A stretch of 64,000 nucleotides of DNA from Bacteroidota bacterium (lineage in GTDB: Bacteria > Bacteroidota > Bacteroidia > Cytophagales > Cyclobacteriaceae), in assembly GCA_018266435.1 (NCBI GenBank), contig JAFEAL010000001.1:1-64000 (forward strand), read 5' to 3'. Shown one piece after another: positions 20,898 to 24,455 of this stretch. How positions within the stretch are numbered: position 1 is the stretch's first letter; each line of letters begins with the position of its first letter. The position numbers were made by a program, and so were the translations under genes. Under the pieces are notes generated by a model. That model searched no databases. It worked only from the letters and a program-made list of their open reading frames with translations, and was not told the DNA's origin.

Positions 20898-21554
20898 TCA
20901 GCCAGAAAGGTTCCACCCCTCGGCTCCAAGCAAGGGCACAAAAGCGAATTGATTGAACTCCTCTTTCAGTACTTTTTCTTTTTTTTTGATAAGCCGCATC
21001 ATTTTTTGTGCATCACGATTGCCTACCGGGATGACCATGATTCCATCTTCAGTCAGTTGATTAAGTAATGTTTGCGGTATAATGGGTGCTCCTGCTGTAA
21101 CGATAATTTTATCGAATGGAGCTTTAATGGGTATTCCTTTTGAGCCATCACCATAAAAAAAGTAAGGACGATAACCAAGCATTGGCAGAAAGTCTCTTGT
21201 CTTTTCATACAACTTTCGGTTGAACTCAATGGTATAAACGGTAGCGCCCATCTCCAATAAAATGGCAGCCTGATAGCCGGAGCCCGTGCCGACCTCCAGT
21301 ACTTTGTTACCTGGCTTTATCTGAAGTTTTTCGGTTTGAAATGCAACGGTGTAGGGCTGTGAAATAGTTTGACCTTCGCCAATAGGAAAAGCTTTGTCTT
21401 CATAAGCATGGCTGAGCAGGGCATCCTCAAAAAACACGTGTCTGGGCACTTTTGCAATGGCTGACAAAACGGCTTCGTCTGTTATGCCTTTTAGGCGCAA
21501 TTTGCTGACCAGTTTATTACGTAGCCCTCGCTGCTTATAATTATCTTCGGTCAT
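20898..21554 (-). CDS. pcm: protein-L-isoaspartate O-methyltransferase
   Basis: 218 residues. The SAM-binding motif LEVGTGSGYQAAIL and the family segments VPRHVFFEDALLSHAYEDKAFPIG, GQTISQPYTVAF and IIVTAGAPIIPQTLLNQL are present. It methylates isoaspartyl residues in damaged proteins so that they can revert to aspartate; cytoplasmic, though some Bacteroidota homologs are exported. No signal peptide here. Monocistronic, with the ArsR promoter behind it and the candidate RNA in front of it. Confidence 0.93.
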   Translation of the reverse strand: MTEDNYKQRGLRNKLVSKLRLKGITDEAVLSAIAKVPRHVFFEDALLSHAYEDKAFPIGEGQTISQPYTVAFQTEKLQIKPGNKVLEVGTGSGYQAAILLEMGATVYTIEFNRKLYEKTRDFLPMLGYRPYFFYGDGSKGIPIKAPFDKIIVTAGAPIIPQTLLNQLTEDGIMVIPVGNRDAQKMMRLIKKKEKVLKEEFNQFAFVPLLGAEGWNLSG

Positions 21555-21626
21555 CGAAAAAGGTCAATTTTAGCCTAAAAAACGTTATTATTAATCAAAA
21601 AATAAAGTTTTATATTTTTCTTAGGA

Positions 21627-21782
21627 AAATTGAAAGCTATCCCTCTACTTTGAAACCCCAACACAGATAAAACCTATTTGCCATAGCGTTTAAAACTGTG
21701 TGACCTGGTCCGGCAGTAGGTGTGGAAAACCCACTTCTACTGCTTGGGCAGGTGAAATAACAAAGGCCTTCAGGCCTTTTTT
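21627..21782 (+). ncRNA. candidate structured small RNA
   Basis: No ORF is apparent on the plus strand. Stem 1: ACACAG (21661-21666) pairs CTGTGT (21696-21701), with an inner AAACCTAT/ATAGcGTTT stem and a TTGCC loop. Stem 2: ACCTG (21703-21707) pairs CAGGT (21749-21753), and inside it GCAGTAG (21713-21719) pairs CTACTGC (21737-21743). A Rho-independent terminator follows at 21762-21782. A degenerate promoter (TTA-N19-TATTTTTC, 21591-21620) suggests a start near 21627 and about 155 nt. Size is in the range of 6S-like RNAs, but the family was not recognised. The 5-prime end is an estimate. Confidence 0.5.
21762..21782 (+). terminator. Rho-independent terminator of the candidate RNA
   Basis: AAAGGCC (21762-21768), TTCA loop, GGCCTTT (21773-21779), T-run to 21782. 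It overlaps the stop codon of the convergent transketolase subunit gene, and the hairpin may also help end that transcript, although the minus-strand T-run is weaker. Confidence 0.8.
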
Positions 21783-22729
21783 CGTTTTAATACCTTTAGA
21801 GCAGCTTCAATAATATTTTCTGGTGCAAGGCCATATTTTTTTAGTAGCTGTGTAGGTGTTCCGCTTTCGCCAAAAGTATCACTCACAGCTACCATCTCAA
21901 GAGGGGTGGGGTAGAAACGTGAAAGGGCTTGAGCAATGCTATCACCAAGTCCTCCATTAGCCTGATGTTCTTCGCAGGTTACCGCGCATTTTGTTTTCTG
22001 AATGGACTCAAGAACGGCCTCAAGATCAAGTGGCTTAATGGTGTGTATGTTGATTACCTCAGCACTGATTCCCTGGGCGGCTAATTTTTCTTCTGCTTCT
22101 ATTGCACTCCACACTAAGTGACCACAGGCCAAAATAGTTACATCTTTCCCTTCGATCATTTTATCGGCTTTGCCAATAGTAAAAGGGCGATCGGGTGTAG
22201 TGAAGATGGGCCAACTGGGACGCCCAAAACGCAAATAGGCCGGCCCTATGTGTTTGCCTAAGGCCAAGGTTGCTGCTTTTGTCTGGTTGTAATCGCAGGG
22301 TACAATTACTGTCATGCCCGGAAGCATTTTCATCATGCCGATGTCTTCCAGAATCTGATGAGTGGCACCGTCTTCGCCCAATGTAACGCCCGCGTGTGAG
22401 GCACAGATTTTTACATTCTTTCCCGAATAGGCAATTGACTGGCGGATTTGGTCGTACACTCTTCCGGTAGAGAAATTAGCGAATGTTCCGGTAAAAGGGA
22501 TTTTCCCTCCGATGGTCATACCGGCTGCCAAACCCATCATGTTGGCTTCTGCAATTCCGGTTTGAAAAAAGCGATCGGGAAAATCCTTTTTGAAGGCATC
22601 CATTTTCAGTGAACCGGTAAGGTCGGCACATAAGGCTACGACATTTTCATTTTGTTTGCCCAGTTCATGAAGGCCCGCACCAAAACCTGAGCGGGTATCT
22701 TTTTTTTCAGTGAAAGTATATTTGGTCAT
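21770..22729 (-). CDS. transketolase, C-terminal (pyrimidine-binding) subunit
   Basis: 319 residues covering the second half of transketolase: the pyrimidine-binding domain (DLTGSLKMDAF, FFQTGIAEANMMGLAAGM, then SHAGVTLGEDGATHQ) and the C-terminal domain (VTCEEHQANGGLGDSIAQ, VSDTFGESGTP). The Glu in GIAEANM would activate the TPP cofactor of the partner subunit. Split two-subunit transketolase is common in Bacteroidota. It moves two-carbon units in the pentose phosphate pathway. The partner gene lies upstream at 22934-23785, separated by 204 bp. Confidence 0.92.
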   Translation of the reverse strand: MTKYTFTEKKDTRSGFGAGLHELGKQNENVVALCADLTGSLKMDAFKKDFPDRFFQTGIAEANMMGLAAGMTIGGKIPFTGTFANFSTGRVYDQIRQSIAYSGKNVKICASHAGVTLGEDGATHQILEDIGMMKMLPGMTVIVPCDYNQTKAATLALGKHIGPAYLRFGRPSWPIFTTPDRPFTIGKADKMIEGKDVTILACGHLVWSAIEAEEKLAAQGISAEVINIHTIKPLDLEAVLESIQKTKCAVTCEEHQANGGLGDSIAQALSRFYPTPLEMVAVSDTFGESGTPTQLLKKYGLAPENIIEAALKVLKRKKA

Positions 22730-22933: not shown

Positions 22934-23785
22934 TTAATAGTCTCCAATAGTTTCTTCTAACTGGGCGAGAGCTTTCTTCAACTCTTCATCATTGGGTGCA
23001 ACTCCATGCCATTTGTGTGAGCCCATCATGTAATCCACCCCAAATCCCATTTCAGTTTTCATCAGGTTGATCACAGGTTTCCCTTTTCCGGTCTGGGCTT
23101 TTGCATTCTCCAGCCCAATGATGACTTCATGTATGTTGTTTCCATTGAACTCATTTACGATCCAGCCGAATGATTCCCACTTGGCTTTGAGGTTCATCAA
23201 AGAGAGGATTTTATCAACAGGCCCGTCAATCTGCTGGCCATTATAATCAATTGTTGCAATGAGGTTATCTATCTTGTTGTGCGCGGCATACATGGCAGCC
23301 TCCCAAACCTGACCTTCTTGTTGTTCGCCATCGCCCATCAGTACATAAACTAATCGCGTGTCGCGATTCAGTTTTTTTGTTTGAGCAGCACCCACTGCAA
23401 CTGATAGCCCCTGACCCAGTGACCCCGAAGCTACGCGGATTCCTGGTAAATGCTCGTGGGTAGCCGGATGACCTTGCAACCGTGAATTGAGCTGCCTGAA
23501 TGTGGCCAACTCTTTCACATCAAAATAACCTGAGCGGGCTAATGTGGCATACCATACCGGAGAGATATGGCCATTGGACAAAAAGAATAAATCTTCGTCC
23601 CGGCCATCCATATTGAATTTGGGATTGTGCTTGAGTACATGAAAATAAAGTGCTACAAAAAAATCAGCACATCCGAGTGAACCCCCGGGGTGGCCGCTTT
23701 GGCAAGCGTGTACCATGCGTACAATATCTCTGCGGATTTGAGTGGCTAATTTCTTTAGTTGTGTAAGGTCAGGTTGTGTAGGCAT
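22934..23785 (-). CDS. transketolase, N-terminal (TPP pyrophosphate-binding) subunit
   Basis: 283 residues covering the first half of transketolase: GHPGGSLGCADFFVAL at the N-terminus, and the TPP/Mg motif GDGEQQEGQVWEAAMYAAHNKIDN (GDG..N). SLGQGLSVAVGAA is also typical. The protein must pair with the C-terminal subunit encoded just downstream, since each active site lies between the two. No other pentose-phosphate gene is near; the upstream neighbour is bcp. Confidence 0.93.
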   Translation of the reverse strand: MPTQPDLTQLKKLATQIRRDIVRMVHACQSGHPGGSLGCADFFVALYFHVLKHNPKFNMDGRDEDLFFLSNGHISPVWYATLARSGYFDVKELATFRQLNSRLQGHPATHEHLPGIRVASGSLGQGLSVAVGAAQTKKLNRDTRLVYVLMGDGEQQEGQVWEAAMYAAHNKIDNLIATIDYNGQQIDGPVDKILSLMNLKAKWESFGWIVNEFNGNNIHEVIIGLENAKAQTGKGKPVINLMKTEMGFGVDYMMGSHKWHGVAPNDEELKKALAQLEETIGDY

Positions 23786-23909: not shown

Positions 23910-24455
23910 TTATTTCTTCATTCGTCTCTTAACCGATTCCTTCACTACTTTTTTTGCTGTCTTTTTAGAAACAGGTTTTTTATTAACCTTAGGAACTGCT
24001 GAGCTATTGGTAAGAATCTGAGCTGTGTGGTTTTTTGTATCTACTTTTCCGATGATCTCAGTAATGGTTCCTTTTTCATCAATAAGAAATGTAACTCGTG
24101 CAGTACCCATGTATTTGCGGCCGTACATCGATTTCTCCACCCAGGTACCATATTTTTTATGAACCGATAAGTCGGTATCGGCCAGTAGTTGAAACGGCAG
24201 GTTTTCTTTTTCAATAAATTTGCGGTGGCTCTTTTCATCATCGCGGCTTACGCCCAGCACCTCGTACCCTTGTTTCTGCAATACGTTGTAATTATCCCTG
24301 AGATTGCATGCTTCGGCTGTGCAGCCTGAGGTCATGTCTTTCGGGTAAAAATAGAGAACCACTTTTCTACCTTTAAAGTCGGATAGCTTTACTTTTTTGC
24401 CATTTTGGTCTTGCGTGGTGAAGTTGGGTGCTTTGGTTCCAACGGTAGGTGTCAT
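23910..24455 (-). CDS. bcp: thioredoxin-dependent peroxiredoxin (BCP family)
   Basis: 181 residues. The peroxidatic Cys is C45 in DMTSGCTAEAC, and the second cysteine C50 is the likely resolving one, an arrangement typical of BCP/PrxQ. It reduces hydroperoxides with electrons from thioredoxin in the cytoplasm. Compared with E. coli Bcp (156 residues), it has a Lys-rich C-terminal extension (KKPVSKKTAKKVVKESVKR), an oddity that may bind nucleic acid or simply be a charged tail. The gene begins 5 bp after the M23 peptidase stop, so the two are probably cotranscribed. Confidence 0.92.
   Translation of the reverse strand: MTPTVGTKAPNFTTQDQNGKKVKLSDFKGRKVVLYFYPKDMTSGCTAEACNLRDNYNVLQKQGYEVLGVSRDDEKSHRKFIEKENLPFQLLADTDLSVHKKYGTWVEKSMYGRKYMGTARVTFLIDEKGTITEIIGKVDTKNHTAQILTNSSAVPKVNKKPVSKKTAKKVVKESVKRRMKK

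Follow-up and report, generated by a model that had tools for sequence, protein, structure and literature searches.

A putative small RNA beside pcm in Cyclobacteriaceae, with a conserved seed complementary to the start codons of mini-histone genes

Background

Among the systems compared here, the closest analogue of the locus described below is IhtA of Chlamydia, which represses the histone-like hctA and the basic protein DdbA. It is described as a three-hairpin small RNA (sRNA) whose loop 1 blocks the AUG in the messages of small, basic proteins that bind DNA (PMC4355289; PMC3469542; PMC8343073). For the Bacteroidota, one study gives TAnnTTTG as the consensus of the -7 promoter box, and describes Bacteroides as lacking evident Hfq or ProQ homologues and as possibly needing longer seeds (PMC7366714).

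The locus lies in a stretch of 64,000 nucleotides (the window) from a bacterium of the Cyclobacteriaceae. A search of titles and of the beginnings of abstracts, outside which most subscription papers fell, gave no description of the sRNA, its targets or its gene. The sole match for Chryseolinea together with sRNA was a paper on cotton wilt, and no title on sRNAs from pseudogenes concerned this locus.

A first-pass annotation of the window had proposed an independent structured RNA on the plus strand at 21627-21782. It contained nothing on a pairing target, a coding ancestry or a conserved pcm neighbourhood. Considering the conservation, the covariation, the exact complementarity at start codons, the co-occurrence within a clade and the coding remnants described below, the element is probably (at roughly 85%) a trans-acting base-pairing sRNA that would place its seed over the start codons of chromatin-protein mRNAs and would derive from the 5' end of a HYC_CC_PP gene.

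Results

Structure of the element

The segment 21627-21782 is confirmed as a strongly folding plus-strand RNA element. Its minimum free energy is -51.3 kcal/mol against a mean of -34.68 for shuffled sequences (z = -4.66), and 0 of 200 shuffles are as good. The minus strand folds as well (z = -3.16, 1 of 200 shuffles as good), because palindromic stems fold on both strands.

The two stem-loops, the long hairpin and the terminator that had been placed here in the first-pass annotation can all be located on the plus strand. Hairpin 1 (21662-21700) has a CACAG/CTGTG stem and carries UUUGCCAUAGCGUU in its loop. The 15-nt seed TTTGCCATAGCGTTT (21677-21691, plus strand) is the perfect complement of the start region of a mini-histone gene at G000:C4:118820 in the same genome. 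Hairpin 2 (21703-21753) is a covarying fold of ACCTG..AGTAG..GTGG with CCAC..CTACT..CAGGT, and an intrinsic terminator, AAAGGCC TTCA GGCCTTT TTT, follows at 21762-21782. With the 5' end set by the -7 box described below, the predicted sRNA would occupy about 125 nt (21656-21782, plus strand).

That no known family had been recognised agrees with the Rfam 15 search, in which 4227 families gave 0 matches at gathering score over the 64000 bases of the window; at E values up to 10, 21550-21850 received five chance-level matches, none of them relevant. As there is no match, all Rfam families, including 6S-Flavo, are ruled out as the identity of the element. The best 6S-Flavo match of the same genome (G000:C2:55120-55265) scores 29.8 bits against a cut-off of 85, and may be a 6S RNA or a chance match.

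Compensatory base changes among relatives, on which the earlier proposal had been made to depend, are present. In a model-built alignment of 64 elements (63 distinct), 19 of 28 pairs show changes on both sides, whereas shuffles give 4.4 and slid versions no more than 7, and 87.6% of the cells are paired; since the alignment was fitted to the structure, the covariation figures are somewhat inflated. In an unfitted MAFFT alignment, 3 of 19 predicted pairs covary and hairpin 1 is not recovered. Covariation supports the outer stem of hairpin 1 and the whole of hairpin 2. The inner CUAU/AUAG helix of hairpin 1, which is 67% paired and shows no two-sided changes, was rejected, and the seed is therefore left in a large loop.

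Conservation

In a DNA similarity search with E up to 0.1, 54 of 58 congeneric genomes had the element; the locus of one of these (G004, E = 0.03), L095, was not confirmed on reading. In the same search, 4 of 38 genomes from the rest of the order gave matches, all four short and weak. A covariance model search of 390 genomes of the order, run with filters that miss weak matches, found the element in 11 genomes, which belong to three genera of one family. A promoter-plus-seed pattern matched 64 contigs among named genomes, and 63 of these are named as Cyclobacteriaceae, Flammeovirgaceae, Cytophagales, Bacteroidetes, Chryseolinea or Chryseotalea. Chryseotalea sanaruensis Ys and Chryseolinea sp. 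H1M3-3 are among those with the pattern. The 64th, L332 (Eubacteriales), was treated as a chance match and excluded from the counts.

The counts given below refer to 70 distinct elements (71 including L332) that have the 9-mer GCCATAGCG and a GGAAA..TG block upstream. The full 14-mer is identical in 69 of the 70, a conservation that is partly preset because the inner 9-mer and the promoter motif were the conditions of entry, so that divergent seeds would be missed. The seed is also held by all 30 loci obtained by the similarity search with the whole element, and by five sister-genus loci obtained with the covariance model, neither set being picked by seed. The sister-genus loci L232, L242, L256, L259 and L271, which have the 14-mer and failed the promoter filter, are outside the 70 and inside the structure alignment.

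By the reading frame discussed below, 19 of the 70 elements are coding and 51 non-coding. A strict plus-strand terminator is present within 170 nt in 18 of the non-coding elements and in none of the coding ones. The 3' end of the sRNA is undefined in the remaining 33 non-coding and all 19 coding elements, because such a terminator is absent there. In several relatives a terminator stem takes the place of hairpin 2, for example AAAACCTGACC..GGTCAGGTTTTTT.

Promoter and gene neighbourhood

The plus-strand element AAATAAAGTTTT (21600-21611) aligns across relatives, in many of which it reads AAACAAAGTTTT, and probably has a transcriptional role; an AAA.TTT core is present upstream in 69 of the 70 elements. 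It is followed by a conserved block, TTAGGAAAATTGAAA (21621-21635, plus strand), which the alignment suggests as a putative promoter or activator element. This block together with TACTTTG matches the genome of the window only once, at the 21621-21652 locus. TACTTTG (21646-21652, plus strand) is a candidate -7 box, as judged from the alignment and from its resemblance to the Bacteroidota TAnnTTTG given in PMC7366714, and in relatives it is replaced by the variants TACTTTGG, TACTTTAG and TATCTTAG. A box of this type is recognised in 65 of the 70 elements, five having no recognisable box, and upstream of the candidate box in the window no clear -33 box is seen. In 30 oriented loci the conserved upstream stretch runs AAACAAAGTTTT .. 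TAGGAAAATTGAAAC .. TACTTTG, after which come hairpins 1 and 2. By sequence, the candidate signals at the two ends of the predicted sRNA are the -7-like box and the terminator; a -33 box was not recognised. In the aligned loci the frame at TAGGAAAATTG is, as judged by eye, not conserved, and the idea that it encodes a leader peptide or an alternative start was discarded.

It had also been suggested that CTTTG (21648-21652) pairs with CAAAG (21761-21765) in competition with the terminator. Both segments exist, but the former belongs to a conserved block that resembles a promoter and precedes the probable start of the RNA, which makes such competition unlikely; this CTTTG is probably promoter rather than RNA. 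Of the independent structured ncRNA first proposed, the fold, the lack of an Rfam match and the covarying stems stand, the antiterminator is not supported, and the transcript is a prediction.

On the left, the element adjoins pcm (20898-21554, minus strand), a protein-L-isoaspartate methyltransferase gene (PF01135, E = 1.8e-53), which is the divergent upstream neighbour of 66 of the 70 elements; the other four are close to contig ends. On the right, a split transketolase and the other real-looking genes up to 27000 are all on the minus strand, and the listed plus-strand ORFs are antisense within them, which bears out the earlier statement that no plus-strand gene follows within 5 kb. The terminator overlaps the 3' end of the convergent transketolase gene.

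The transketolase consists of two tandem minus-strand ORFs (window 21770-22729 and 22934-23785), named by eye and from the first-pass annotation. A peroxiredoxin, also named by eye, at window 23910-24455 has a Lys-rich C-terminal tail, and in the relatives L347, L369, L383, L384, L386 and L388-L390 aconitase-like or peroxiredoxin ORFs (by eye) carry mini-histone-like tails of the KKAAKKKK type.

The constant adjacency of pcm, and the folding of the reverse strand, would also suit a riboswitch or attenuator leader on the minus strand, the reverse strand of the element being the 5' UTR of pcm. This reading is very improbable, considering that the 18 terminators after non-coding elements are on the plus strand, that the -7-like boxes are oriented rightward, that the HYC_CC_PP frame and its remnants run rightward, and that complementarity to the histone mRNAs exists only for a plus-strand RNA. 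The base pairs point the same way, with 84 G.U on the plus strand against 50 A.C, although 25 of the 50 come from one poorly aligned pair and the excess is modest.

Target sites in mini-histone genes

AACGCUAUGGCAAA, the exact complement of UUUGCCAUAGCGUU, has one further occurrence in the genome of the window, across the start codon of a Lys-rich mini-histone of 21 residues. The seed complement AACGCTATGGCAAA has two exact sites there, namely the element itself and G000:C4:118820, where the ATG within it begins MAKKPAKKAAKKAKKAAKKKK and the complementarity reaches 15 nt. A conserved seed is thus complementary to the translation start of another gene, as would be expected of a trans-encoded base-pairing sRNA. 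When up to two mismatches are allowed, the number of sites in this genome is 61, and the reversed control gives 45, hardly an excess, so that the signal lies in the exact match and not in weak ones.

In 62 genomes of the genus, 115 exact 14-mers were found (in 59 genomes), compared with 13 for the reversed control. Sixty-one of these sites were read, and comprise 42 mini-histone starts, 9 SWIB starts, 4 further copies of the element and 6 others; the other 54 are by their coordinates the pcm-side element, except G055:C5:78341, which was not fetched. Forty-four of the 62 genomes have at least one mini-histone or SWIB gene with the exact site at its start. Fifteen genomes without an exact site were searched for mini-histones, and 11 have them, with near-copy sites. 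In these 11, 13 of 15 mini-histone ORFs have only changes that preserve G.U pairing (AACGTT, AATGCT, AGCGCT or GACGCT before ATGGCAAA), and the other two have AATTGCT, with one non-pairing base; six more loci of that search are other genes with Lys-rich tails and were not counted. In the remaining 7 of the 62 genomes no mini-histone or SWIB site was found, the near-copy search having excluded G003, G024 and G052, and five being less than 80% complete. A possible extra target is a RidA-like protein (named by eye) whose start codon falls within the exact 14-mer in a single genome (L167, G047:C34:103334).

In an even draw of 148 genomes across the family, the 14-mer occurs in 27, with at least two copies in 19 and one copy in 8. 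None of the 8 single copies is at a Lys-rich start. A pattern for the mini-histone C-terminus, used with 0 mismatches, matches 19 of the 148 genomes, which are the same 19 with at least two 14-mers; more divergent mini-histones would be missed by it. Twenty-two of the 26 pattern loci are readable and give 20 mini-histone ORFs and 2 other genes; 17 of the 20 ORFs have the exact site, and 3 have one G.U-preserving change. One genome, G476, has two target sites, and an exact sRNA copy was not found in it. The co-occurrence represents few independent events, since it is limited to one clade.

A motif that is short, highly conserved and near several gene starts might be a shared DNA-binding site, in which case AACGCTATGGCAAA would serve as an operator for a protein at each of the two loci and its pairing as RNA would be incidental. 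The motif, however, is non-palindromic, is inverted relative to transcription at the sRNA, lies exactly on the ATG at the mini-histone and SWIB targets, and sits within the loop of a covarying hairpin, while 16 of the 18 variant mini-histone sites keep G.U pairing. There seems very little chance that an operator accounts for these features, and RNA pairing is the preferred reading.

The duplex of seed and target has an energy of -23.7 kcal/mol, against -17.0 for the best of 71 start regions in the window, and the net gain on co-folding is -12.8 for the target against -8.3 for the best of these regions. For the 46-nt region of hairpin 1, the duplex with the target reaches -29.5, compared with a mean of -11.4 and a best value of -23.1 in 2000 shuffles. 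One start region of the window surpasses the target over these 46 nt (-31.7); total duplex energy alone therefore fails to single out the target, and contiguous pairing does so.

SWIB and other Lys-rich proteins

SWIB proteins were found in 8 of 88 genomes of the family, all in genera of the sRNA clade; within this draw they are present in 8 of 10 genomes of the clade and in 0 of 78 others. Two are identified as SWIB by Pfam (E = 1.3e-28 and 1.9e-26). Four of seven readable SWIB starts have the exact site, and three do not. L272 and L235 have further Lys-rich proteins that begin at the site; these have no convincing Pfam family, and 'H1-like' is our own label for them. SWIB is ruled out as a target in the genome of the window, none having been found there.

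Coding relatives and origin

Other genera, and some members of this genus, have a HYC_CC_PP (NF047658) reading frame that begins in the corresponding DNA; there the seed encodes F-A-I-A-F and hairpin 2 encodes T-V-G-V-A-K-T-T-H-Y-C-M-G. With the NF047658 model, L039 scores 31.7 bits and passes the cut-off of 28, and L019 is just below it at 26.4; in both, the next gene downstream is an HMA-domain gene (by Pfam in L039, by eye in L019). At the window locus there is no intact HYC_CC_PP frame, the frame being open for only 10 codons.

In a quickly built pcm tree of 62 rows, at least 8 changes between the coding and non-coding states are required, 3 of them forced by well-supported branches. In-frame remnants such as THYCKGG persist in non-coding copies, and HYC_CC_PP is also found in other families of the order; from these two observations we infer that the direction of change was from coding to non-coding. 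It appears that the frame was repeatedly lost while the promoter, seed and stems persisted. The non-coding elements L016, L026, L030, L031 and L334, which lie near coding ones, may be recent losses or assembly errors, the latter being possible because most of these genomes look metagenome-derived.

Synonymous codon identity among the 19 coding copies falls from 0.80 over codons 1-32 to 0.50 in the remainder; when the three codons used for picking the sample are left out, the first value becomes 0.77 (2750 of 3561 pairs). Constraint at the level of the RNA therefore seems to be present while the protein is still coded, that is, before its loss. Two other HYC_CC_PP genes of the window's genome, G000:C20:256819 and G000:C20:343367, lack the seed and the promoter motif around their starts.

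The broken frame in 51 of the 70 elements and the THYCKGG-type remnants would also be left if HYC_CC_PP were a pseudogene in decay, its promoter surviving as a relic and the element no longer having a function. In such a case the seed and stems should drift freely, which is not seen among the non-coding elements found. The promoter and seed are retained where the frame is lost, the stems covary, terminator stems have arisen after hairpin 1, and the target sites persist. Mere decay is considered the least probable of the explanations weighed here, and a functional sRNA derived from the gene is favoured.

Discussion

The proposed sRNA would be transcribed rightward from the conserved promoter between the pcm and transketolase genes and would end at the terminator near 21782. 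Hairpin 1 would display the highly conserved seed UUUGCCAUAGCGUU, which is predicted to pair over 14-15 nt with the AACGCU-AUG-GCAAA of Lys-rich mini-histone mRNAs and, in some species, also with mRNAs of SWIB-domain and other Lys-rich proteins. Translation would be repressed, a prediction made because the duplex covers the start codon. The RNA seems to have arisen from the 5' end of HYC_CC_PP, which it would still overlap in several lineages, the frame having been lost in the lineage of the window.

The sign of the effect is not given by pairing alone. The same duplex might allow the RNA to activate or stabilise the mini-histone mRNA, or the histone mRNA might act as a sponge. Such outcomes are unlikely, if somewhat less so than the other alternatives, as the duplex spans the start codon and such pairing represses in the case of IhtA and hctA, according to PMC4355289.

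A broader reading, held with less confidence than the sRNA itself and judged somewhat better than even, is that of a clade-wide chromatin switch, in which a single RNA, with a 14-nt seed that hardly varies, would control a changing repertoire of Lys-rich nucleoid proteins (mini-histones, SWIB and H1-like proteins) at their start codons, convergently with Chlamydia IhtA. It would have begun as a dual-function mRNA in which the codons of a signal peptide were also the seed, and would have turned several times independently into a pure sRNA upon loss of the protein.

If the main reading is true, the element represents a new sRNA family with a predicted regulon that can be read directly from genome sequences, and the phylum is one in which regulation by sRNAs has been little mapped. 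The strategy of IhtA, the silencing of histone-like proteins at the start codon, would then have evolved a second time. In addition, the locus provides successive intermediate stages of what seems to be the conversion of a protein-coding gene into a regulatory RNA, and the RNA function would be visible as constrained synonymous codons ahead of the loss of the protein.

With the known systems, some general comparisons may be made. The 6S-Flavo RNA (RF01685) is likewise a structured RNA of Bacteroidota, but it has no match in the window, and the best score in the genome, which lies elsewhere, is below its 85-bit cut-off. The HYC_CC_PP genes (NF047658) share the same DNA, which starts such a gene in sister lineages, whereas in the window the RNA and not the frame is kept. 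GibS and other intergenic sRNAs of Bacteroides thetaiotaomicron are, like the RNA proposed here, trans-acting RNAs of Bacteroidota, for which PMC7366714 suggests extended seeds. The possible need for longer seeds in Bacteroides, mentioned there, fits the seed of 14-15 nt. In contrast to GibS, which the same source describes as relatively unfolded, the present RNA is strongly structured, with its seed in a loop.

As in IhtA, a hairpin loop would pair across the AUG of a histone-like mRNA, here on the grounds of complementarity (compare PMC4355289). The differences are that the phylum is another one, that the complementarity extends over 14-15 nt here against 6-7 nt as described for IhtA, that the predicted targets are Lys-rich mini-histones and SWIB proteins, and that the gene either derives from a HYC_CC_PP coding sequence next to pcm or still overlaps it. 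The likeness to IhtA is presumed to be convergence, homology being unlikely given the different phylum.
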